A DNA stretch of 64,000 bases from an uncultured Campylobacter sp. (GTDB lineage: Bacteria; Campylobacterota; Campylobacteria; Campylobacterales; Campylobacteraceae), in assembly GCF_944323605.1 (NCBI RefSeq), contig NZ_CALUTC010000001.1:248001-312000 (forward strand), given 5' to 3'. The position numbers and the translations under genes are program-made. This document shows positions 2,206-54,458 of this stretch, one piece after another (the stretch's first letter is position 1; every line of letters starts with the position of its first letter). The notes under the pieces are model-generated. The model was not told the DNA's origin, ran no database searches, and saw only the letters and a list, made by a program, of their open reading frames with translations.

Positions 2206-3192
2206 TTATAAATCCTCGTAATTCTTACCACCGAATTTTAGCAAGGCAGAACCCCATACGAAACCACCACCAAAGGCATCAAGCAATATTGTATGCCCTT
2301 GTTTTAAAAGCCCTTTTTCATAGGCTTCATTCATAGCCATTGGTATTGATGCTGCAGAGGTATTGCCAAATTTTTGCACAGTTAAAATACATTTTTCATC
2401 TGGTATTTCAAGCTTATCTTGCACAGCTTTAATAATCCTTAAATTTGCTTGGTGTGGTATAAAAAGGTCTATTTCACTTTTGTCTATATTATTGTTTTTA
2501 AGCATATTAACAGCGTCGTTTTGTAGTGTTTGAACTGCTACTTTGAAAACTTCATTTCCTTTCATTTTCATAGCTAAAGGTTTGCTTATAGAACTTTTTT
2601 CAGCCCTTTGTATCATAAGCAAATCAGAATAAACACCATCGCTTGCAGTATGTACGTCTATTATGGGATATTTATCGTCTTTGCTTACCACACAAGCACC
2701 AGCACCGTCACCAAAAAGAATGCAAATGCTTCTATCTGTATAATCCATAACAGAACTAGTTTTTTCTGCCCCGATAATCAAAACATTTTTCTTTAGACCG
2801 CTTTCTATAAAAGATTTTGCTACTTCTAGCAAATAAATAAAACCAGAACAAGCAGCTGATATATCAAAGGCTGTTATATTTTTTAGCCCTAAATTCGCAG
2901 CTATTTTACAGGCAGTAGATGGCATAGTGAAGTAATCAGGGCTTAAGGTAGCAACCACAATGGCATCTATTTCATCTTTTTGTATGCCGGCTCTTTCTAT
3001 AGCTAAAATGGCTGCCTTTGTGCCAAGATCACTTGTTTTTTCATCATTTTTTGCTATTCTTCTTTCTTTGATACCTGTTCTTTTGCTTATCCATTCATCA
3101 TCAGTATCAATCATCTTTTCTAGCTCTTTATTATCTAAGATATTTTCTGGTATATATGCAGCTATACTTTTTATAGAGGCTTTATTTTTCAA
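2206..3192 (-). CDS. fabH: Beta-ketoacyl-ACP synthase III (FabH)
   Basis: Initiates type II fatty-acid synthesis by condensing acetyl-CoA with malonyl-ACP. 328 residues. The Cys-His-Asn triad is visible as [13 protein letters not shown] and FGNTSAAS. The most upstream start is TTG at 3192, inside the 3' end of plsX (11-base overlap), which implies translational coupling. The plsX-fabH order is the conserved lipid-initiation operon. A second, divergent KAS III-like gene lies in the pse operon (19026-19943); this copy is the housekeeping enzyme. Confidence 0.97.
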
Positions 3193-4168
3193 AATTTGCT
3201 AGCTCACTTTCTATAACTTGATAAATGTTTGATTCGCTAAATTTTAGAGCTTGAAAAATAGCATTTTTAATAGCTCTTGAGTCGCTTTTTCCGTGACTAA
3301 CTATTACACAACCATTTATCCCAAGCAAGGGTGCTCCACCATATTCTTGCCAGTCTATGTGTTTTTTTAAGCCCTTAAATACAGGCTTCATTAACATAGC
3401 ACCTAGCATAGCCATTTTTGATTTTTTTGTTCTTTCTTTTAACATAGAGAATATAGCACCAGCAACACCTTCACAGGCTTTTAAAATAACATTTCCGCTA
3501 AAACCGTCGCAAACTAAAACATCTATGTTATTGTTAAATATGTCCTTGCCTTCTGCATTGCCTACGAAATTTTTTAATTTTTTGAGCAATTTATGACTTT
3601 CTTTTGTGAGTTCATTTCCTTTGCTTTCTTCTTCACCATTTGAAAGAAGTGCGATTCTAGGCTCTTTTAAGCCCATTATTTCTTTTGCATAAGCTTCGCC
3701 CATAACCGCAAATTGAAATAAATGCTCACTTTTGCAATCCGTATTTGCTCCAACGTCTAAAAATAGTGTTTTATCTTTTGTATTTGGCATTAATGTAGCT
3801 ATTGCTGGACGTAGAACATTTTTTAGCCTACCAACTCTAAGAGTAGCTAAGGACATAGTAGCACCGCTGTGTCCTGCTGAAACAACGGCTTGAACTTTTT
3901 TTATTCTTAGTAATTCAACAGACTTGTATATAGTGCTATTCTTGTATTTAAGAGCTTCAGTAGCACTTTCTTCCATAGGAAAAACAAAATCACTTTGTTC
4001 ATATTCTATAAATTGCCTCAGATGCTCTGGTATTTGTGGGCTAAGTAAATTTTCATCTCCAACTAATACAGCCTTGAATTTTTTAGTTTCTAAAGCTTGT
4101 ATAAGACCTTCTATTATGGGTTTTTCCCCATAATCTCCACCCATTGCATCTATGGCAATGCTTATCAT
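3182..4168 (-). CDS. plsX: Phosphate acyltransferase PlsX
   Basis: Makes acyl-phosphate from acyl-ACP for the PlsY route to phosphatidic acid. 328 residues, starting [17 protein letters not shown], the characteristic PlsX N-terminus. A second conserved stretch is DVGANTDCK, followed by CDGFSGN. The start codon directly abuts the rpmF stop (4169), so rpmF, plsX and fabH form one tight unit linking ribosome and membrane synthesis, as in many bacteria. Confidence 0.97.
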
Positions 4169-43346: not shown

Positions 43347-46300
43347 ATGTATTTTGATTTTAACGCTTACGAAGCAAAAGGCGGAAACAAAGAACATTTT
43401 TTACAGCATGTAAAAAATTCTTACGAACTTGAAAATGATGATTTTGAAAGGCTAGAAAATGGGATTAAGTCTTTTAATGAAAAAAATAAAACAAATTTTG
43501 ATTTGTATGATTACCTAAAATACAATGCAAACAATATGAAATTTAAGAAAAAAGAAAATTTAGACATAAAAACAGAGCCTGAAAAAATAGAGCCTAAAGA
43601 TGAAGACTTTGAAAAATATAAAAAAGACTATGCAAAACAAGGCTTTTGGGGTGATGTGATAGATGATGTAAAAGATGATATTTTTATGGTTGATTTATTC
43701 TCTGATGATAGAAAAAAAGAAAAGGATTATCAGCAAAGAATTTTAGGAGAGGTTAAAGAAAAGATAAGCCAAAATTTAGATGAAAATAGCTTAGATGAAG
43801 CACAAAAGAAAGTTTTAAAAGACAAAGGCTTAAGCTTTAAAGATTTAAAGAAAAGACACGAGATAGCAAACAAAGACTATAAAGACTTAAGCGATGATGA
43901 AAAAAAGATAATAGAAAGTGAAAACGGCTTTTTAAATAGCACTTGGAATAATTTTTTTAATGAAAAAGATGCAAATCATAAAGAATTTAAAGAAAAATAC
44001 AATAGCGAGGGCGTTATCCTTAAGTCCTTGCAAGATAAATTAAACACCATTAATCACTTTCACAAGAAAAACCGTTTAGCAACTACCATCTTAAATCCTA
44101 GTGTAAGCGATGAAGATAACAAGGCTTTACAAAAGGATTATTTAAATTCAGTTTATGAAGTAGCTAAATTTGCTGGTTTTGATGATATAGCACAGGATAA
44201 AAATGGTGGGCTTTATTTGATAAAAGATGATAAGCAAAAAGGCGAATTAGCTTACAAAGTAAATGAGGGCTTTTTTGATAATTTCTTAGATAGTTTGCAA
44301 AATTCAAAGTTTGAGATAGCAAGTTCAGTAGCAGGAGGTATAAAAGGCTTTAATAGCGGAAAAAATCCTCGCTCTAAGGTAATAAGAGGTATCGCTGGTT
44401 CTGCTTTAGGTGCTACTGTAGGAGCTGGGGCTGATTATGCAGTATCATCTTATGACAAAGACAAAGATTTTAAGGATATGCTTGATTATAGTATAAATTC
44501 GGGCACACTTGATTTAGCTTTTGGCACAGCTTTAAGCACAGCAGGGCATTTTATAGAAAGATATGGAGTTAAAGAAGCACTTAAAAAGCCTTTTGCAATG
44601 GCAAATAAAGCTCTTGATTATACTCCTTTAGTTTCCACCACCAAAAACTTTCCTACGCAAAATATCAAAGCCGCACAGGATTTAGTAGAAAAAAGCGTGG
44701 ATTTAAACACACAAAAAGAGCTAGACGAGTTTTACAAAGCTTACGGCGGAAGGAGTGATTTAGCCGATAGCAAGGCACTTGATGCTTTGGTTGATACCTT
44801 TAAAGTAAAATTTGGCGAGGATAGTTTTATAAGCAAAAATACACAAAAGCTAAACGACATCTTAAATCTAAATTCGCTTTCAGCTAAGCAAAACGCCCTT
44901 TTTGAAGCGATAAGAGCTGATGAAAGCGGCTTTTTGCTACCTTATGTAAAAGAAGTCGCCTCTTACGATGTAAGGGCTTTTAAAAATCTCAAAAATATCC
45001 TAAATCTAAGCACACAAAGGCTTGAAAGCTCTCTTAAAAATCTTAATCTAAACAAAGGCGATATTAAAGGCATACTTGATGACTTAGAAAAAGGCACGAA
45101 AGAAGACTATAATGAAGTGATGAATGAAATTTTAGCCAAAACTTACGATGATAGATTTAAGGTGGTTTTGTCCCGCAGCGTTACGCCCGAAGCGACATCA
45201 AGCCATAATCTTGATAGCGTTATGACAAAAACACAAGAGCCGAAGATACTAACTCCACAAGGTGAAGCGATCACACCTCTTAGCCAAAAGCCAAGCGTTT
45301 TCTTAGATAGCACTTCGGCTGAAAAATCGCTATCCAACGCAGACGTCCTAAATCCGTCCTTAGTCCGAAGCCAAGTGCCATTATATAGCGATAAAGAGGC
45401 TCAAACGCTACTTCGTGGTTATAAGCCAGACGCTAATTCTTTTGCCTCTTCTAAGCAAAATTATAACATTTTAAACTTAAAAACACAGGCTAAAGATGAG
45501 GATTTTTTTAATGAAAGACTTAAAATACAAGAGCTTTTAACAGAACAAAAAGGCGAAGTTGTAAATAAAAATACTAATGAAACCGCACAGCTTAGTAACA
45601 AGGGCATTAAAAAAATGCTAAGCGATAAAGCTATTTCTAAAAGCGTAGATAATGGCTTTTCTAAAATGGAGCATTTACAAGCAGTAGCAAATATAAAAAC
45701 TCTTTTTGAAAATTCACAAAAAAGCTTAATAAAAAGCGATAAGGTAGATGATAAGCTTAAAATATACCGCTATAAAAGCGATTTTAATATAAACGATAAA
45801 GACGCACAGGCTTTAATAACTCTAAAAGAGTATGATGAAAACGGAAAAAAACTTTATAGCTTAGAATTAGATGAGCTAGTGCCAAATAAGCTAAAATCTA
45901 GGGGCGAGAGCTTAAGTGGTAATACTTCAAACCGTCCTCACGGCACCCCAAGCTCCGCAAGCGGTAGTGAAATACCTACTAGCCAAAACAATTATACCAC
46001 CTTCCGTAAGAATTTACAAGAGCAAGGCTTAGACATAGATAGAGGAGAAAGAAATATTTTAAAACTAAAAACTGATTTAAAAGATGAAGATTTTTTTAAG
46101 CAAAGAGACAAAATAATAAAAGATTTAAAAGCAAATAAAGGCGAGGTAATCAACTCTTACACGAATGAAAGTGCTATTTTAAGTAATGCAGGTATAAAAA
46201 AGATGAGCAGTGATAAAGCCATAGCTAAAAGCGTAGATAATGGCTTTTCTAAAATGGAGCATTTAGAAGCGGTAGCAAATATAAAAGAGTTGTTTAGAAA

Positions 46301-49300
46301 TTCTAAAAAACTTATAAGTAAAGGCGATGTTAAAAACAGCGATAATAACTTAATCATAAATAGATATGTAAGCGATTTAAATGTTAATGATAAAGAGGCA
46401 AAAGCCTTACTCACGCTTAAAGAATACAATGAAAACGGAAAAAGATTTTACAGCTTAGAATTAGAAAATTTAGAGCCCTTGTCATCGACCAAAAGGGGCG
46501 TAAATGGCGATAAAGGCTCTTTTTTTAATGGTGACCGAGACACCCCTAGCTTCTCGGCGCAAAACAATTATACCACCTTTAGAAAAAATTTACAAGAACA
46601 AGGCTTACTAGAAAATATGCCCTCTTTCACAGCTCCTAAGGATTTAAACACAAAAGAGATAGAAGAGCTAATAAAAAGATTTGATAATGTAGAAAATCTT
46701 AAAAAACACCTAAATTCAAGACCTGATGCAAAAGAAAGAATGACTTTGTTTTCTTTGCTAGATACCACGATGCAAGAGCCACAGCTTAAATGGCTAAAAG
46801 ATGGCAAGGATAAAAGATTAAAAAAATTTAAAAATGAAAATGATAGCTTAGAGCCTTATTTTTATTTGCTTGTTACAAAAGATAAGGATAAAACCTTTAT
46901 AACTCATTTAAAAACAAAGGATTTAAAATATCTAAATAAAGAACTTCAAAACGCAGATGAGATTTTAAAAGGTGCTGACATTATAGAGGGCTTTAGACAG
47001 CAGGCAGGTAGTGCCAATAATGGCATTTCACCCTCAACCTCCAAAAACAATTATACCACCTTCCGTAAGAATTTACAAGAGCAAGGGCTTTTAGATGAAG
47101 AGGCTATGAAGTTTTTAAACTATGTAGAAAATACTATTTATAATCCAAAGGGAGTTACTTTTACTCAGCTAAACAATGCCTTAAAAAACATCAACTCCTT
47201 TTACAAGCAAAGCACAAACCCGGGCTTTAAAGAACACATCAAAAACGCAGTTGAGAGCTTTTTAAGAGAGGATATAAAAAAGGGTATAAATGAAATCTTT
47301 AAGCAAGATAAAAATTTATACGCAAAGGCAAGTAAGCTTTATGAAACTTCCTTAGCTGAATACGCCCAGATGAAAGAATTACTAAAAGCAAGTGCTTACA
47401 AAAAGGCTAGAAATGAAAGCACAACACAAGTTAAAGCACTTGATGAGCTTATAAAATACTCCAAAGGACAAGGAAAAGATGGGCTAAACAATCTTGACTT
47501 TTTAAGGGCTAAGCTAGATGAAAAAGATATAGCCATTTTAGAGATGAATTTATTAAACCGACTTTATGAAAAAAGCCTTGCAAATACCGATGAGAGCTTA
47601 AGGGTTTTTGATAGCACTAGCTTTTTAAATGAGCTTAGCAGCTTACAAAATAATGCCTTTAAAAGCAAGGAAGCAAATGAGTTTATCGAGCTTGTAAAGG
47701 GCTTTGATAAGCTTTTTAAAAATGACGCAAAAATAGCTCTTGAACTAGCACCTGTTACAGCTAAAAAAGAAGGCTCTGCCCTTGCAACCTCCGCAAAGGG
47801 TGCGGTTTTGCAAAAGATTGTTAAAAGCGGCTTTGATCTGGTTTTTAGAAATTTAGGGCAAAATGTGCTTTTTGGTGCTTTTAAAGATAGCATACAAGGA
47901 GCGGCTTTAAGGTATCATCTTAAAAAAGCCCTGCAAAAAAGCGATACTATAAGCGAATTTAACAACACCCTAAGACAAAGCCTAAAAAAAGGCACTTTTA
48001 ACTCCAAAACAAAGGAACTTTCAAAAGAATTTTTAAATGAAGTAGATAAATTTTCTAAGTCCTTAGATGATGAAATTAATTTTACTATGCAAGAAAGCAA
48101 AGAAATACCTACAAAAACAGAGTTTAAAATCGATGAGAATTTACAAGCAAAATTAAATTTAGATACCGATGTTTTAAAAGCTGATTTACAAAAATTAAAA
48201 TCTACACACCCTGAACTTTTTGAAAATAAAGGAGCAGTTGCAAGGCTTATAAATAAAATAAAAGAAAATCCTACTTTTTTCTTTGATAATAATAGGCTTG
48301 ATATGAAGTTAGTAGGAGCTTATATTAAAGATAATTTTGCAGAGTTAGGCATAGTAACACAAGGTAAAAACACGGGCGATATAGGACATATACTAGAAAC
48401 TTCAAAAGCACAACAAAGAATAAAATCTTTGCAAAATAGAGAAACAAAAAGCCCTTTGGTCGAGACCGCCACCCTCGACACACTCCCTTACAATAAGGCA
48501 GATGGGCGGAATAGTGATATTTCACTTTCAAAGGACAAAGACAATTCTACCACAAATGTCGCCTCTTTGTCAAAAACAAGAGAACTTAGCAAGGATTTTT
48601 TAAACGATGTTGAAAATTTTTCTAAGAATTTAGATGATGAAGTTTTAAAGGATACAAAGCTAAGTGATGAAAGTTTAAAGGACTTACCCAAAGACTTACA
48701 AGAACAATGGATAAAAGAATTTAATCTTAAAAGCGTAGATGATGAGTTTGTTCCAAAGTTGCCAAAAGAGATAGAAAATATTTTTGAAGGTGGTATTCAT
48801 TTAAAGCTAGGTAGCTTGATAAAATTACAAGAACGAGATAGATTAGAGTTTTTAAAGAAAATCAAACCGACATTACAAGAGCCTGACGCAGTTCTTAGGC
48901 AAAACGATGGAGCTTATATTTTTATAAAAGATTTTAAGCAAAAGAAGTATTTTAGCACTGTTACTAGAAACGAAAACGGCGAATGGGTGGTTACAAGCAA
49001 TGCGCCAAAGACGCTAAACAACATCAAAAATAAAATTAGCGAGGGCGGAGAACTTGTTTATAACACTCTCCCCGAGCTTCCAATAATCGCTAAGCCCGAA
49101 TTACCCGCTAAAGCGTTGAATAGCGAGGGAGATGTTAGGCCTAATTCTAGCACAAATTTATCAAAAGAGCAAATAGAGCAAGGTAAGCCAAACATTAAAA
49201 TTCTTTCAAAAAGCTTTATTAAAGATGATTTATTAAATGTCGATGAAGATGTAAGTATAGCGGTTGTTAGCAAGGATTTTATCAAGCAAAATTTACAAAG

Positions 49301-52300
49301 AGGAAAAACACAATTTAGAAATAAAGAAAATTTAAACGTTATAAATGATATTAAAAATAATTTTAATCCAAGAGAGCATTTTAAACCAAGTTCAAACTTT
49401 GACGGCTTACCTTTGCTTACAAAAGATGGACTTGTAATAGCAGGAAATCACAGAAGCACCGCACTAAAAGAGCTTAATGAAAATGCTAAAAAAGAATATA
49501 TAGCAAAGGCAAAAGAAATTTATGGAGATGATGTTTTTAAGGGTTTTAATGAAAATGAAGCCTTTATAGTTAGAATTTTAGAAAACAATACAGATGAAAA
49601 TATAGAAAGATTGTCAAAGCTTTCAAATGACGGCAGACTTTTTGAAGAAGCTGAAAAATTTCATTCAGCAGGTGCAAAATATAAAGAAAAATTAGAAAAT
49701 ATCGTAGAAAATAAAAGTATTTATCAGATTAATAACGAAAAAGATTTAATGAGATATTTAGGCTCTAATGATATTTACGAAGCACAAAGAGCATTAATTG
49801 ATTTTTTAATACCAGATGCAAATGAAGCTGTGAAAAAATGGGAAAAGAAAAATAGCGGTGATGTTTTCTTTTCAAAAATGCTAAATGATAATGCTATAAG
49901 GCTTTTAAAATTCAAACAAGCTTTAAGCAAAAACAAGGCTTTACACGATGAAACAAAGGATTTTATAAATCTTTTTGCAAGAGCTATAGAGGGTTTAGCA
50001 CAAGAAGGCGAGTATAAAGGCAATAGTGATATTTACAAGATTTTAGAAAGGTATAGCTTACCTACTTTAGATTTTGGAACAGATGTAGGACAAAAACATA
50101 AGGACTTACAAGGCGATATTTTAGGATTTATTTTAAGATATGGAGATACGCTTACAAATCCTAGCGATTATCTAGCCAATCTTTTGCAAAATGCTACAAA
50201 ATTTGTAAATGATAATGTTTCAGCTAATATCTTTGCACCTGATGTAAAGATAAATAATTACGATATTTTAGAAACTATGCTAAAAGAACAAATTACAAAA
50301 AGTGAAAAATATCAAAAGCTAAAAGCAGGGGCTATAAATATAAGAAATGCTGAAAACAATTCAAACCTAACAAACAATAATTTAGACGAATTAAGAGCAA
50401 AGCAAAGAGCGTATGAAAACGAAAAATTAGATGATGAAAAATTAAATTTTTCTTTTAATTCTGAAAACAAACACATAAGAAGCTTAAGAGATGATTTAAA
50501 AACAAGCCTTAAAGATAATTTAAATGTAGATTTTACAAATAAGCAAACGGGTATAAAAGCAAGAATTTCAAGCGATGAGTTAAGAACAATGTCATCATCA
50601 AAAGAGGTGTTTAAAAGCGTAGATAATGGCTTTAAAAGAGAAGAATACTTTGAAGTAGCTAAAAATATTACAAATATTTTTAAAAATGCCAAGCTCAAAG
50701 AAAAGCAAGAAAGTGAGCTTAAAGGAAACAATATAAAGTCTATTTATACTTTTGAAAAAGATATAAAAATAAATGGTAAAGAAGCAATAGCTACTATAAA
50801 GGTTTTTGAAAAAGAACACGCAAATAATAAAATGAATTTTTTAAGATTGCAAGAATTAAAACCCGCCTTTTTAAAGCCTAGTGCGAAATCAGCAAAGACG
50901 GCAGATAATACTCAATCGACGGCAACCACGCACCCTGAACCCGCTAATATTGTAAAATCTGATAAAGAGTATTCTACCACAAATGTCGCCTCTTTGTCAA
51001 AAACAAGAGAACTTAGCAAGGATTTTTTAAACGATGTTGAAAATTTTTCTAAGAATTTAGATGAGGAAGTTTTAAGGGATACAAAAGCAAGCGATGAAAT
51101 CTTAAAGGACTTACCTAAAGAAAACATAAATAAAAAAGTGGCAGAGATAGCACCCTCCGATACCACTTCACAAAAGATTATTTCAAAGAAGCTAGAAAAA
51201 AAAGAAGAATTAGGCACTATAAAAGAAAGGAGCATTAAAGCCGTAGATAGATACGCACAAACACAAGCATTTAAGGCTTTAAGCAAGGATAAGCAAGAAG
51301 CTATTTTAAGCCTAAAAGATATAGTGCCAAGCCCTATGCCACAAGAAATAAAAGCTAATGATTTACAAAATTTAAAACTGCATTTTAAAGGTAAAAATGA
51401 TGAAATTCAAAGAAAAGAGCTTTTAAAACTTTTTGATATAACAAAACAAAAGCCCGATATAGAACTAAATATTAAGGTTAATAACGAGGATAGAAAAGAA
51501 TATATTAAGGCTTTTCAGCACAGAGAAAATAAGGACTTATACTATATAGCCATAACGCAAGATAAGGATAATATCTACATAACAGGTATTCCAACAACAC
51601 AGATTAAAAAAGTTATTAATGATATAGCAAAGAGTGAAGAGGTTTTAAAGCGGGGATTTTTGGAAGGATCTATTAACCCCGCCACGCCTTTAAATGAAAA
51701 TTTAAACAAAGCTTCCAACGTTCAAGAGTATTCTACCACAAATTCTATAAAATTACAAGCTAACCAACACTTAGGCACAGGTAATACTAAAAAAGTTTTT
51801 GATTTATCAAACAAAGATGATATGCAAGAGCTTAAAGCATTTTTTCATACACATAGCACAGATACACAAGAGGCAAAAGAATTATTTAATCGGGTTTTAG
51901 AACAGGCGCAACATTTCAAAATTAAAGTAAATTTTACTAATGATTTGCCAAGAGGGGCTTCAGGCGAATACGATAAATACTATTTAGTAAAGATTTTAGA
52001 TGATTACCACCCAGAGTATAAGGCACAAACATTATTTCACGAGCTTATCCATAGCGTTACAACAAATGCCATAATGTTAGTTAATGTTAGGACACATTTA
52101 GACAAAACAACACTATTACACCCTAAACAAATAGAAGCGGTAAATACTATAACAACAATCTATAAAGACATCAAAACCAAATTTCCAAAATTCAGTGCGG
52201 TATCACGGAACTATGGTATGAAAAATGAATTTGAATTTATCGCAGAATTAGCTAATCCAGAGTTTAGAGATAAACTAAAAAAACTTAATGTGTTTGAAAA

Positions 52301-52982
52301 GATTGTAGATGCTATAACAAAGATTGTAGTATATCTTAAAGATAGCGTAAGAGGCTATGGAAAACCAACGGGCAATGTGTATGAAAAAACAAAAAAAGCT
52401 CTAATAGATATAATCGATAACTACGATAAAGACTTTTTAGAGAGGTATCATAATACCTACAAAAAAGAGGGAATGAGTAGCCAAGCACATTATAACTTAA
52501 AGCTAGAATTTAAGTTTTTGAATGAAAAAGGAGAGATTGATTTTAGGGCTTTGGAGAGCGAAGCTGTTACGTTACCTAAGGCTTTAAAATTTAGTGCGTT
52601 TAAAGAAAGCATTTTACAAAGTAGTAATGCAAAGCCACAAAGCAATAATAAAGTGAGTTATAAGACTATCATAGGCGATATTAATATAAATTTGGGTTAT
52701 ACCTACTCACATTTTTTTAAAAATGGCAATGGCAAAGAAAACCGATTTAACCTCACAGGAGCTTTAACGCATATTTTAGATAATCCACTTTTTGTAACAA
52801 AAGATAAAAAGGGGGCGTATTATTTTTATAAACCCTTTAAGGACGAAAAAGGCTTTAAGCATTTAGTAAGCATTTCAGTAGATAAAAATGGGAAAATAGA
52901 GTATAGAACAAGTTATGAAGCCTCTAATACTAGACTTAAACAAATGATTAAAATGCACGAATTGGCATATTTAAAGGAGTAG
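43347..52982 (+). CDS. Giant polyvalent phage protein with multiple nuclease-like, ParB-like and zincin domains
   Basis: 3211 residues, the largest gene here. N-terminal charged region, then a glycine-rich membrane-active stretch (IRGIAGSALGATVGAGADYA, about 347-366). LPD3-like modules at about 705-850, 896-1048 and 2372-2508. Barnase/EndoU/colicin E5/RelE-like (PBECR2-type) modules at about 1089-1215, 1795-1910 and 2658-2765. A DUF3519-like module at about 1605-1705, a ParB/DdrB-like region at about 1950-2300 (VIAGNHRSTALKEL), a zincin with HELIH at 2898-2902, and a last nuclease-like domain at about 3105-3211. Polyvalent proteins are thought to enter the host with phage DNA (Iyer, Aravind and co-workers); that role here is inferred. 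Domain names are by pattern. An AAAGGGG site precedes the ATG. Confidence 0.85.
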   Translation: MYFDFNAYEAKGGNKEHFLQHVKNSYELENDDFERLENGIKSFNEKNKTNFDLYDYLKYNANNMKFKKKENLDIKTEPEKIEPKDEDFEKYKKDYAKQGFWGDVIDDVKDDIFMVDLFSDDRKKEKDYQQRILGEVKEKISQNLDENSLDEAQKKVLKDKGLSFKDLKKRHEIANKDYKDLSDDEKKIIESENGFLNSTWNNFFNEKDANHKEFKEKYNSEGVILKSLQDKLNTINHFHKKNRLATTILNPSVSDEDNKALQKDYLNSVYEVAKFAGFDDIAQDKNGGLYLIKDDKQKGELAYKVNEGFFDNFLDSLQNSKFEIASSVAGGIKGFNSGKNPRSKVIRGIAGSALGATVGAGADYAVSSYDKDKDFKDMLDYSINSGTLDLAFGTALSTAGHFIERYGVKEALKKPFAMANKALDYTPLVSTTKNFPTQNIKAAQDLVEKSVDLNTQKELDEFYKAYGGRSDLADSKALDALVDTFKVKFGEDSFISKNTQKLNDILNLNSLSAKQNALFEAIRADESGFLLPYVKEVASYDVRAFKNLKNILNLSTQRLESSLKNLNLNKGDIKGILDDLEKGTKEDYNEVMNEILAKTYDDRFKVVLSRSVTPEATSSHNLDSVMTKTQEPKILTPQGEAITPLSQKPSVFLDSTSAEKSLSNADVLNPSLVRSQVPLYSDKEAQTLLRGYKPDANSFASSKQNYNILNLKTQAKDEDFFNERLKIQELLTEQKGEVVNKNTNETAQLSNKGIKKMLSDKAISKSVDNGFSKMEHLQAVANIKTLFENSQKSLIKSDKVDDKLKIYRYKSDFNINDKDAQALITLKEYDENGKKLYSLELDELVPNKLKSRGESLSGNTSNRPHGTPSSASGSEIPTSQNNYTTFRKNLQEQGLDIDRGERNILKLKTDLKDEDFFKQRDKIIKDLKANKGEVINSYTNESAILSNAGIKKMSSDKAIAKSVDNGFSKMEHLEAVANIKELFRNSKKLISKGDVKNSDNNLIINRYVSDLNVNDKEAKALLTLKEYNENGKRFYSLELENLEPLSSTKRGVNGDKGSFFNGDRDTPSFSAQNNYTTFRKNLQEQGLLENMPSFTAPKDLNTKEIEELIKRFDNVENLKKHLNSRPDAKERMTLFSLLDTTMQEPQLKWLKDGKDKRLKKFKNENDSLEPYFYLLVTKDKDKTFITHLKTKDLKYLNKELQNADEILKGADIIEGFRQQAGSANNGISPSTSKNNYTTFRKNLQEQGLLDEEAMKFLNYVENTIYNPKGVTFTQLNNALKNINSFYKQSTNPGFKEHIKNAVESFLREDIKKGINEIFKQDKNLYAKASKLYETSLAEYAQMKELLKASAYKKARNESTTQVKALDELIKYSKGQGKDGLNNLDFLRAKLDEKDIAILEMNLLNRLYEKSLANTDESLRVFDSTSFLNELSSLQNNAFKSKEANEFIELVKGFDKLFKNDAKIALELAPVTAKKEGSALATSAKGAVLQKIVKSGFDLVFRNLGQNVLFGAFKDSIQGAALRYHLKKALQKSDTISEFNNTLRQSLKKGTFNSKTKELSKEFLNEVDKFSKSLDDEINFTMQESKEIPTKTEFKIDENLQAKLNLDTDVLKADLQKLKSTHPELFENKGAVARLINKIKENPTFFFDNNRLDMKLVGAYIKDNFAELGIVTQGKNTGDIGHILETSKAQQRIKSLQNRETKSPLVETATLDTLPYNKADGRNSDISLSKDKDNSTTNVASLSKTRELSKDFLNDVENFSKNLDDEVLKDTKLSDESLKDLPKDLQEQWIKEFNLKSVDDEFVPKLPKEIENIFEGGIHLKLGSLIKLQERDRLEFLKKIKPTLQEPDAVLRQNDGAYIFIKDFKQKKYFSTVTRNENGEWVVTSNAPKTLNNIKNKISEGGELVYNTLPELPIIAKPELPAKALNSEGDVRPNSSTNLSKEQIEQGKPNIKILSKSFIKDDLLNVDEDVSIAVVSKDFIKQNLQRGKTQFRNKENLNVINDIKNNFNPREHFKPSSNFDGLPLLTKDGLVIAGNHRSTALKELNENAKKEYIAKAKEIYGDDVFKGFNENEAFIVRILENNTDENIERLSKLSNDGRLFEEAEKFHSAGAKYKEKLENIVENKSIYQINNEKDLMRYLGSNDIYEAQRALIDFLIPDANEAVKKWEKKNSGDVFFSKMLNDNAIRLLKFKQALSKNKALHDETKDFINLFARAIEGLAQEGEYKGNSDIYKILERYSLPTLDFGTDVGQKHKDLQGDILGFILRYGDTLTNPSDYLANLLQNATKFVNDNVSANIFAPDVKINNYDILETMLKEQITKSEKYQKLKAGAINIRNAENNSNLTNNNLDELRAKQRAYENEKLDDEKLNFSFNSENKHIRSLRDDLKTSLKDNLNVDFTNKQTGIKARISSDELRTMSSSKEVFKSVDNGFKREEYFEVAKNITNIFKNAKLKEKQESELKGNNIKSIYTFEKDIKINGKEAIATIKVFEKEHANNKMNFLRLQELKPAFLKPSAKSAKTADNTQSTATTHPEPANIVKSDKEYSTTNVASLSKTRELSKDFLNDVENFSKNLDEEVLRDTKASDEILKDLPKENINKKVAEIAPSDTTSQKIISKKLEKKEELGTIKERSIKAVDRYAQTQAFKALSKDKQEAILSLKDIVPSPMPQEIKANDLQNLKLHFKGKNDEIQRKELLKLFDITKQKPDIELNIKVNNEDRKEYIKAFQHRENKDLYYIAITQDKDNIYITGIPTTQIKKVINDIAKSEEVLKRGFLEGSINPATPLNENLNKASNVQEYSTTNSIKLQANQHLGTGNTKKVFDLSNKDDMQELKAFFHTHSTDTQEAKELFNRVLEQAQHFKIKVNFTNDLPRGASGEYDKYYLVKILDDYHPEYKAQTLFHELIHSVTTNAIMLVNVRTHLDKTTLLHPKQIEAVNTITTIYKDIKTKFPKFSAVSRNYGMKNEFEFIAELANPEFRDKLKKLNVFEKIVDAITKIVVYLKDSVRGYGKPTGNVYEKTKKALIDIIDNYDKDFLERYHNTYKKEGMSSQAHYNLKLEFKFLNEKGEIDFRALESEAVTLPKALKFSAFKESILQSSNAKPQSNNKVSYKTIIGDININLGYTYSHFFKNGNGKENRFNLTGALTHILDNPLFVTKDKKGAYYFYKPFKDEKGFKHLVSISVDKNGKIEYRTSYEASNTRLKQMIKMHELAYLKE
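45986..47088 (+). repeat. Repeated junction encoding NNYTTFRKNLQEQGL, three copies
   Basis: Copies at 45986-46030, 46562-46605 and 47045-47087. The first and third share 42 identical bases; the second has drifted. They are 1059 bases apart (353 codons exactly), so recombination between copies 1 and 3 keeps the frame. Each copy directly follows a cassette. Confidence 0.85.
48544..51064 (+). repeat. 94-nt perfect direct repeat inside the giant gene
   Basis: 48544-48637 and 50971-51064 are identical over 94 bases, encoding STTNVASLSKTRELSKDF and onward. The spacing of 2427 bases is exactly 809 codons. A shorter relative of its start recurs at about 51728 (GAGTATTCTACCACAAAT). The segment between holds a nuclease-like module, the ParB-like region and the third LPD3-like module. 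Confidence 0.88.
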
Positions 52983-53316
52983 CCTTGCCTTGCGTATTAC
53001 CTAACCATTACACAATAATACGGCTCCTGACCATAGCACCACAATGGAGGTTGGCTTTTACTACTATGGCGGAAAAGGCAAAGGCTGTCTTTTATTTTAT
53101 CATAGTTTTTTACAAAATTCAATATAACCAACACATAGGCTTAGCAAGTGGAACAATAAGCGGAATTGAAACCGATGAAAATGGCAATATAACAGGCTTT
53201 GATCCGCAAAAGTTTGCTTTAGGCTTTTTAGTAACAGGCATTCCAACAAAGAAAAAGCTAAACACACTTAAAAAAGTTAAGCTTATTTTGATAGCTAGAT
53301 ATTTTATTTAAAGGAG
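52983..53316 (+). pseudogene. Decayed orphan 3' end of the giant gene family (tail copy 1)
   Basis: From 53126 the DNA encodes NQHIGLASGTISGIETDENG and then FDPQKFALGF, clearly homologous to tail copy 2 (54950-55153); after FALGF the reading diverges. Upstream, 52985-53120 contains readable pieces in other frames (for example TTMEVGFYYYGGKGKG) that look like a decayed module. No intact start; I treat the open frame 52985-53311 as a remnant. Confidence 0.6.
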
Positions 53317-53445: not shown

Positions 53446-53579
53446 ATGAAAGCAAAAACAATAGAGATTAATAATAATCGTTTAAAAATATCTTTTATCC
53501 CTTTTTAGTATTAGCAAAGCAAGAATTGCTAAATTTAAAACAAAATTTAAAAAGCATTATAGAGGGATATAAAAAATGA
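53446..53579 (+). pseudogene. Small ORF split by a one-base slip in a T5 run
   Basis: ATG at 53446 reads MKAKTIEINNNRLKISFIPF to a TAG at 53508. One extra T in the CCCTTTTT run would continue as LVLAKQELLNLKQNLKSIIE and on to a TGA at 53577-53579 that overlaps the next ATG. The reconstructed product is about 44 residues with a helical C-terminus. The precise coupling to the next gene argues the intact version is real and that this copy is off, shifted, or mis-sequenced. Confidence 0.5.
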
Positions 53580-53917
53580 GCAATGCAGATCTTATCTCTA
53601 TGATGAGCACCTATTTAACCTATACTAGCATAATTATCGCTGCGATAACCCTTATTCTTGCTGCTATGACAATATGGATTACTATTCGTTTTAATAGAGA
53701 CGGAAAAAAGCTTATCCAAGAAAGTGCAAATAACTTTTTAGATAAAATATCAAAAGATGAAAATTTACGCAATGATTTAATTAATAAAATATTAGCAAAT
53801 AGGAATTTTATTCAAGAGTTTGAAAAGATGGTCGATATACATATAAGAAATAAAATAAATATGACCACAGAGGATAAGAAAGAAAAATCAAATATAGGAG
53901 GTTTAGACAATGTATAA
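53576..53917 (+). CDS. Single-pass membrane protein of the accessory set
   Basis: 113 residues: membrane helix (about 14-37: TSIIIAAITLILAAMTIWIT) then a charged helical cytoplasmic region. The ATG overlaps the TGA of the small ORF before it; its stop overlaps the start of the ImmA/IrrE-like gene. Candidate immunity or anti-toxin membrane component; no known family recognised. Confidence 0.6.
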   Translation: MSNADLISMMSTYLTYTSIIIAAITLILAAMTIWITIRFNRDGKKLIQESANNFLDKISKDENLRNDLINKILANRNFIQEFEKMVDIHIRNKINMTTEDKKEKSNIGGLDNV

Positions 53918-54458
53918 GGAAATTAAGAACAAAACTCCCTATGAAATTTTGGATATGCTTGAAATGAAAGAGGCACCTTTTAATCCTTTTGAAGTGGCAA
54001 GAAAATTAAATATCCGAGTAGAAACTACATTAGATTATGATAAGCTAGATACAGAGGGACAAATAAGTGTTAATGAAAGTGGAGAACCTATTATTTGGAT
54101 TAATCCGATAAAAAGCGAAGAGAGGCAAAGATTTACTTTAGCACACGAATTAGGACATTTGGCAAATGATATTTTACCGAGCTTAGATGACCCTATCATT
54201 GATAGGTATGAAACACTTTACAGAAGCAATGCTTATGGTGGCATCGAAACAAAAGCCAATCAATTTGCAGCAATGTTACTTATGCCACTAAAGCCATTAG
54301 AGGATTTTATCCAAGAATGCAGGAAAGACAATCCAAAATTAACAGCCAAAGAAGCTATCCTTTTAATTTCTTCAAAATTTGAGGTTTCCAAACAGGCGGT
54401 ATTTCATAGACTTCAAAATTTAGATCTTATCAAAAAAGATTATTCCTATCCATTTTAA
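53910..54458 (+). CDS. ImmA/IrrE-family metallopeptidase
   Basis: 182 residues with the zinc motif HELGH in FTLAHELGHLAND and a downstream NQFAAMLLMP stretch, the IrrE/ImmA (M78) signature. ImmA-type peptidases cleave repressors of mobile elements; others act as toxin or antitoxin partners. AGGAGG lies upstream of the ATG. Unlike classical ImmA there is no adjacent Xre-type repressor; the partner here is a membrane protein. Confidence 0.85.
   Translation: MYKEIKNKTPYEILDMLEMKEAPFNPFEVARKLNIRVETTLDYDKLDTEGQISVNESGEPIIWINPIKSEERQRFTLAHELGHLANDILPSLDDPIIDRYETLYRSNAYGGIETKANQFAAMLLMPLKPLEDFIQECRKDNPKLTAKEAILLISSKFEVSKQAVFHRLQNLDLIKKDYSYPF

Follow-up and report, generated by a model that had tools for sequence, protein, structure and literature searches.

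What is a 3211-residue protein that carries several nuclease-like modules doing in a prophage, and how are such modules gained and exchanged within one reading frame? The question is raised by a gene in a 64,000-nucleotide stretch of DNA (hereafter, the window) from an uncultured Campylobacter sp. (positions 248,001 to 312,000 of contig NZ_CALUTC010000001.1, assembly GCF_944323605.1). The original prediction of one uninterrupted gene was confirmed, because positions 43347–52982 of the plus strand form a single ORF of 3211 amino acids without an internal stop. The neighbouring genes are those of a podovirus-type prophage (integrase, replication initiator, helicase, primase, endolysin, terminase, portal, and major head protein). 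The gene, its conserved parts, and one module adjoining them are as follows.

43347–52982, plus strand: gene of the predicted polyvalent virion protein; one ORF, matching PHROG 4668 (E = 1e-157), PHROG 10859 (E = 4e-105) and, by tblastn, jhp1044-family phage proteins
43833–45179, plus strand: conserved N-terminal backbone (residues 163–611), including a glycine-rich stretch (325–405); long matches to nine further genomes of the genus, and 90% DNA identity to the nearest relative, G003, over residues 423–607
47043–48077, plus strand: central backbone (residues 1233–1577), opening with the native copy 3 of linker A; 95% DNA identity to G003, together with an alignment of relatives
48087–48335, plus strand: unclassified module (residues 1581–1663), related by sequence comparison to the C-terminal module of G003; without a Pfam match

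Both PHROG families are of unknown function, and NCBIfam returned no match for the protein. It was homologous to jhp1044-type Helicobacter phage proteins in a tblastn search of 145 phage records, and the core profile of the backbone also matched in Helicobacter phages. When single segments of the window were used to scan viral and genome contigs, nothing was found; an alignment as the query did recover the relatives there. A glycine-rich membrane segment had been proposed near the N-terminus; the glycine richness is real (15% in residues 325–405 versus 4% overall), but the best hydropathy value of 1.0 is too low for a transmembrane helix to be assigned with confidence. For the unclassified module (1578–1700), profile comparisons with PBECR1, PBECR3, and PBECR2 were negative.

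By its sequence, the giant protein belongs to the jhp1044 "mosaic" polyvalent family. This jhp1044/HP1116 family was described from Helicobacter (pro)phages by Iyer et al. 2017 (PMC5512222): its basic set consists of four PBECR domains and a ddrB-ParB domain, members from outside H. pylori have LPD3 domains, and the mosaicism is extensive, with as many as 50 domain combinations. The window protein has the homologous backbone, PBECR together with ddrB-ParB, and LPD3 as in the non-pylori members. Its size is not extreme, because complete-looking relatives in the genus range from 2342 to 5014 amino acids. The original prediction, in which a polyvalent protein of a podovirus-type prophage carries several BECR-type modules, was right.

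The modules other than the nuclease-like ones are listed below.

45513–45857, plus strand: LPD3 module 1 (Pfam PF18798)
46137–46472, plus strand: LPD3 module 2 (Pfam/HMM)
50475–50825, plus strand: LPD3 module 3 (Pfam E = 3e-16)
49248–49526, plus strand: ddrB-ParB domain (residues 1968–2060; Pfam PF18763, E = 8e-15)
51747–52526, plus strand: zincin-like module, with HELIH at residues 2898–2902 (52038–52052), from the motif and 63% identity to an H. pullorum prophage region

Pfam confirmed the three LPD3-like modules (E = 1.4e-39 for the whole protein, in three stretches at residues ~723–837, ~931–1042, and ~2377–2493), and the ParB-like region proved to be a ddrB-ParB domain. Of the proposed HELIH zincin, the motif stood, together with the homology to Helicobacter pullorum, and EFEFIAE at residue 2961, downstream of HELIH, is kept in a relative, including its E. 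The zincin fold was not confirmed, as there was neither a Pfam match nor a fold match for the module, whose model was poor (pLDDT 57) and made the PDB search meaningless. The zincin assignment is thus a putative one, based on motif and homology. A DUF3519-like module had also been proposed, but PF12033 did not match the whole protein or its pieces at E ≤ 10, whereas the same model matched a relative, G045.

At least three PBECR2-type modules had been predicted, and four were recovered.

46635–46964, plus strand: PBECR2-type module 1 (residues 1097–1206; H1121, R1131, K1160, T1186); Pfam E = 0.004, profile E = 3e-31
48708–49061, plus strand: PBECR2 module 2 (H1818, R1832, K1861, T1883); Pfam E = 4e-14, AF2 model with pLDDT 78
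51318–51644, plus strand: PBECR2-type module 3 (H2679, R2689, K2721, T2746); profile E = 1e-25, without a Pfam match
52707–52952, plus strand: C-terminal PBECR2-type module 4 (H3122, R3133, K3162, T3188); profile E = 6e-15, Pfam E = 0.008

When the protein was scanned in pieces, the Pfam PBECR2 model matched clearly at residues 1788–1905 and weakly at 1117–1201 and 3127–3201, so that the Pfam cut-off is reached by module 2 but not by modules 1 and 4, and module 3 was assigned by the iterative profile only. This profile, started from residues 1785–1915 and built on the collected loci, placed residues 1090–1207, 1794–1903, 2658–2766, and 3121–3202 in one family (E = 3e-31, 1e-37, 1e-25, and 6e-15, respectively). 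The segment at 2658–2765, singled out by the original prediction, is therefore BECR-like too, and the predicted terminal nuclease-like domain is of the PBECR2 type. The residues H, R, K, and T align at near-constant spacing in all four modules, although the alignment at the His of module 2 is shifted, and each module pairs an N-terminal His with a Thr in a late strand (H1121/T1186, H1818/T1883, H2679/T2746, and H3122/T3188). In the AF2 model of residues 1792–1905 (pLDDT 78, pTM 0.74), a long helix is followed by four strands and a helix; the helix-then-four-strands order is as expected for BECR, which is suggestive but not proof of this fold. A PDB search with the model gave no significant match (best E = 0.21), and the best of these non-significant matches included BECR-type toxins (the CDI toxins 7m5f and 6cp9, HigB2 5ja8, and BrnT 3u97). 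The alignment of H, R, K, and T in all four modules makes the suggested action against host RNA or rival elements plausible. On the other hand, contrary to what had been supposed, so many nuclease modules are nothing out of the ordinary for this family: the basic set already comprises four PBECR domains and ParB, relatives reach 3756 and 5014 amino acids, and the module richness of the protein is normal for the family.

The protein had also been proposed to travel in the virion. HPy1R gp12 (199.56 kDa), a protein of an H. pylori podovirus, was identified in the structural proteome with 64 unique peptides and 43.8% coverage (PMC9319048 Table 2), and tblastn identified it as a homologue of the giant gene. 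Packaging of the giant protein is thus supported by an orthologue, one that comes from an H. pylori phage and has a different module set.

The organisation of the gene became apparent from repeats between its modules.

45984–46028, plus strand: linker A copy 1 (NNYTTFRKNLQEQGL); matches copy 3 at 43/43 nt
46560–46604, plus strand: linker A copy 2; 89.6% identical to copy 1 over 48 nt (88–90%)
48003–48077, plus strand: native copy of linker B at the end of the central backbone (LSKTKELSKEFLNEVDKFSKSLDDE), from the repeat comparison
48534–48695, plus strand: linker B copy 1; 92.5% identical to copy 2 over 161 nt
50961–51122, plus strand: linker B copy 2; 92.5% identical to copy 1 over 161 nt
45240–45320, plus strand: 81-nt island (residues 632–658), present with 81/81 nt in G003 at a different distance from the backbone
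53134–53231, plus strand: apparent relic of a displaced cassette end just 3' of the stop codon (GLASGTISGIETDENGNITGFDPQKF); 78% DNA identity to two cassette ends of G003

Linker A, a 15-residue stretch, occurs at residues 881, 1073, and 1234. The copies of linker B, of 54 residues, are at 1730 and 2539, and its core recurs at 1553. The linkers are far more alike (A1–A3 and B1–B2 above) than LPD3 modules 1 and 2, which share just 72–76% DNA identity. Linker A is the start of the central backbone and linker B is its end. Relatives in which the site is empty read straight through (VVLDR-TKYENIKKDFLENGV), and thus the LPD3-LPD3-PBECR series occupies one backbone site, with a copy of the backbone junction after each module. 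Two short, weak matches aside, linker A DNA was confined within the genus to the window gene and G003 (81%). Silent positions share in the identity, in 13 of 14 codons for A1–A3, in 42 of 45 for B1–B2, and in 18 of 18 in a relative, G048, although the repeat pairs were picked by DNA similarity, so that these biased tests are supportive for the recent pairs only; the older copies, A2 and B0, showed no excess over the modules. The linkers have no core in common between sites or phages, and both site-specific recombination and a universal protease site were rejected on this ground.

Comparisons with other phages revealed the same pattern at several backbone sites. Between stretches of shared backbone, the window has LPD3-LPD3-PBECR2-type where G003 has PBECR3, and ART modules lie downstream in G003, which includes two ART cassettes with nearly identical ends and diverged middles. 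A second site, in the backbone stretch FKSKEAREFLE, is empty in the window protein, in G003, G033, G010, G034, G040, and G044, and in H. pylori phages, but it is filled by LPD3 in G045 and by PBECR in G048, L050, and L051; in the latter two, approximately 21 backbone positions were matched on both sides of the PBECR. Between G045 and G048, the modules at this site are unrelated and the backbone is 85.4% and 84.0% identical, whereas the linkers are identical at 73/75 (97.3%) and 80/81 (98.8%) positions. Similarly, the PBECR cassettes of L050 and G048 agree at 422/444 positions (95.0%) in backbones of 84–86% identity. Under the backbone rate, the chance of such agreement is P = 4e-4 and 2e-5 for the two G045–G048 linkers and P = 2e-11 for the L050–G048 cassette.

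Cassettes were also found in shifted positions. The genome of G010 contains a second, broken copy of the gene, in which 1315 nt of backbone are 99.5% identical, and a 950-nt LPD3 block is 99.7% identical between the copies but shifted by ~3.2 kb. The linker SLNAKTQEGLKQDVQ precedes the LPD3 block in both copies and also stands before PBECR2 modules there. In the H. pylori phage L040, a PBECR1 cassette lies between two copies of QDLSPxELAKAEKLAKLE that are identical at 53/54 nt; L045, which agrees with L040 on either side, has a single linker and lacks the module, and in L041, the PBECR1 cassette plus linker occurs at another place. In L041 and L038, a stretch similar to this module lies on the other side of ParB. 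Rearranged module order was observed among the orthologues. The comparison took in relatives rather than a population closely related to this particular phage, and the direction of change, gain or loss, is read from the empty sites.

Some relatives display further rearrangements. Two PBECR modules of L051 (ORF residues 891–1000 and 1361–1474) share 94% DNA identity in the N-terminal half and 65% in the C-terminal half, which points to a crossover inside a nuclease domain. The 5014-residue relative in L031 (2147–17191) contains an in-frame tandem duplication, which must be very recent because ~970 nt are nearly 100% identical. One genome carries three backbone copies (L030, L034, and G010:C1:455193), of which two are interrupted by stop codons, and such broken copies may serve as module donors.

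These comparisons establish that modules differ at fixed backbone sites, that cassettes occur at differing positions, and that, in several independent comparisons, linkers are more alike than the backbone or the modules. From this we infer that homologous recombination between linkers is the process behind the exchange. The window gene probably encodes a jhp1044-type packaged protein with effector modules, and is itself a cassette array that exchanges them by linker recombination. The giant protein would be packaged in the virion, as seen for the orthologue, and probably ejected with the DNA; in the cell, host RNA or defences would be the targets of the BECR-type RNase modules and the ParB domain, perhaps after the zincin module has cut the protein itself. 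The gene would consist of a conserved backbone with a few insertion sites, at which homologous recombination brings modules in and removes them, and short linkers, several of them copies of the backbone at the insertion point, would provide the homology for the crossover. Since the linkers copy the backbone at that point, an insertion would keep the frame and leave a further linker for the next event. Such recombination probably takes place during phage replication or between co-resident prophages. With somewhat less assurance, we favour the view that the array renews itself, each module bringing a copy of the backbone junction and each insertion leaving a new homology target, which would permit in-frame effector exchange at several internal sites in phages of both Campylobacter and Helicobacter without a site-specific recombinase.

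A possible, though unlikely, alternative is that the protein serves mainly as a structural or ejection-conduit component, with the BECR modules being inactive nucleic-acid binders that coat or pilot DNA, as proposed for MuF of phage Mu. The abundance of HPy1R gp12 in virions by peptide count, the glycine-rich N-terminal region, and the conserved backbone would all suit such a role, and an inactive PBECR in Mu MuF was noted by Iyer et al. 2017 (PMC5512222); however, the aligned H, R, K, and T residues at near-constant spacing in all four modules argue against inactivity, and rapid module exchange is typical of conflict effectors, not of structural parts. We consider it improbable that the likeness of the linkers stems not from recombination but from selection at the protein level, for example on recognition sites at which the zincin or another protease cuts between modules. 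The linkers do stand between modules, a protease-like module is present, and self-processing by such domains was proposed in the same study (PMC5512222), but the linkers of a single protein differ wholly in sequence from site to site, as do those of different phages, several linkers belong to the backbone itself, and the flanking DNA shows higher identity than the backbone does. This reading fits less well because the linkers share no motif and because the silent positions are identical in recent pairs, although older pairs show no such excess. A role in segregation, in which the protein would partition an episomal phage as proposed for an H. pylori prophage gene with a DUF3519 domain (PMC11321410), is very improbable: the giant protein does have a ParB-like domain, but Iyer et al. 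2017 (PMC5512222) regard the DdrB-type ParB as a DNase-like domain found in injected proteins, DUF3519 has no match in the protein, the orthologue HPy1R gp12 is in the virion, and most of the protein is not ParB.

The preferred reading, a packaged effector protein encoded by a cassette array, has counterparts in several known systems. The jhp1044/HP1116 family shares the homologous backbone, the PBECR, ddrB-ParB, and LPD3 modules, the extensive mosaicism, and the phage context, whereas the window member comes from Campylobacter-type hosts, carries modules within its backbone, and has both a zincin-like module and four copies of the BECR2 type. HPy1R gp12 shares the homologous backbone and ParB and was found in virions by mass spectrometry (PMC9319048), but differs in its length (1757 amino acids) and module set. 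The N4-like virion RNA polymerase and other virion-packaged polyvalent proteins are likewise giant virion proteins with several enzymatic domains, often including a metallopeptidase; in contrast, no RNA polymerase domain was found in the window protein. The polymorphic toxin systems Rhs and CdiA exchange toxin-like modules at conserved flanks by homologous recombination and leave displaced relics beside the gene. In those systems, the C-terminal toxin alone changes and the immunity gene travels along with it, whereas the modules of the window protein are exchanged in frame at several internal sites.

The protein itself adds a member to a known family; what is new is the linker organisation, which we did not find described in open-licence papers. 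Linker copies of the backbone are absent from Iyer et al. 2017 (PMC5512222), in which "linker" and "shuffl" occur 0 times; a cassette-like recombination was suggested there for another group of polyvalent proteins, without mention of linkers. The mosaicism of the jhp1044 family has been known since 2017 without a mechanism described in open-licence papers, and the linker copies offer a simple and testable one. Furthermore, they give module boundaries at nucleotide precision, which is useful for assays of single modules, and they join phage-injected effectors to the cassette exchange of bacterial polymorphic toxins.

No paired immunity gene was seen for the giant gene in the window, where a small membrane-protein gene (53576–53917) lies downstream, followed by an M78 (ImmA/IrrE-like) peptidase gene (53910–54458), just 3' of the giant gene. 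SocA/Panacea-type antitoxin genes lie at or near the giant gene in L031 (17374–17913) and L025 (16673–17206), the latter with M78 close by; these could be immunity or counter-defence genes, although no consistent pairing with the giant gene emerged. Finally, a stand-alone PBECR2 protein of 224 amino acids, 32% identical to the module 2 region of the window, is encoded in L036 (7687–8361, contig 11) directly 3' of a TraG/TraD-like coupling protein gene, and therefore on a T4SS-type element rather than a phage.
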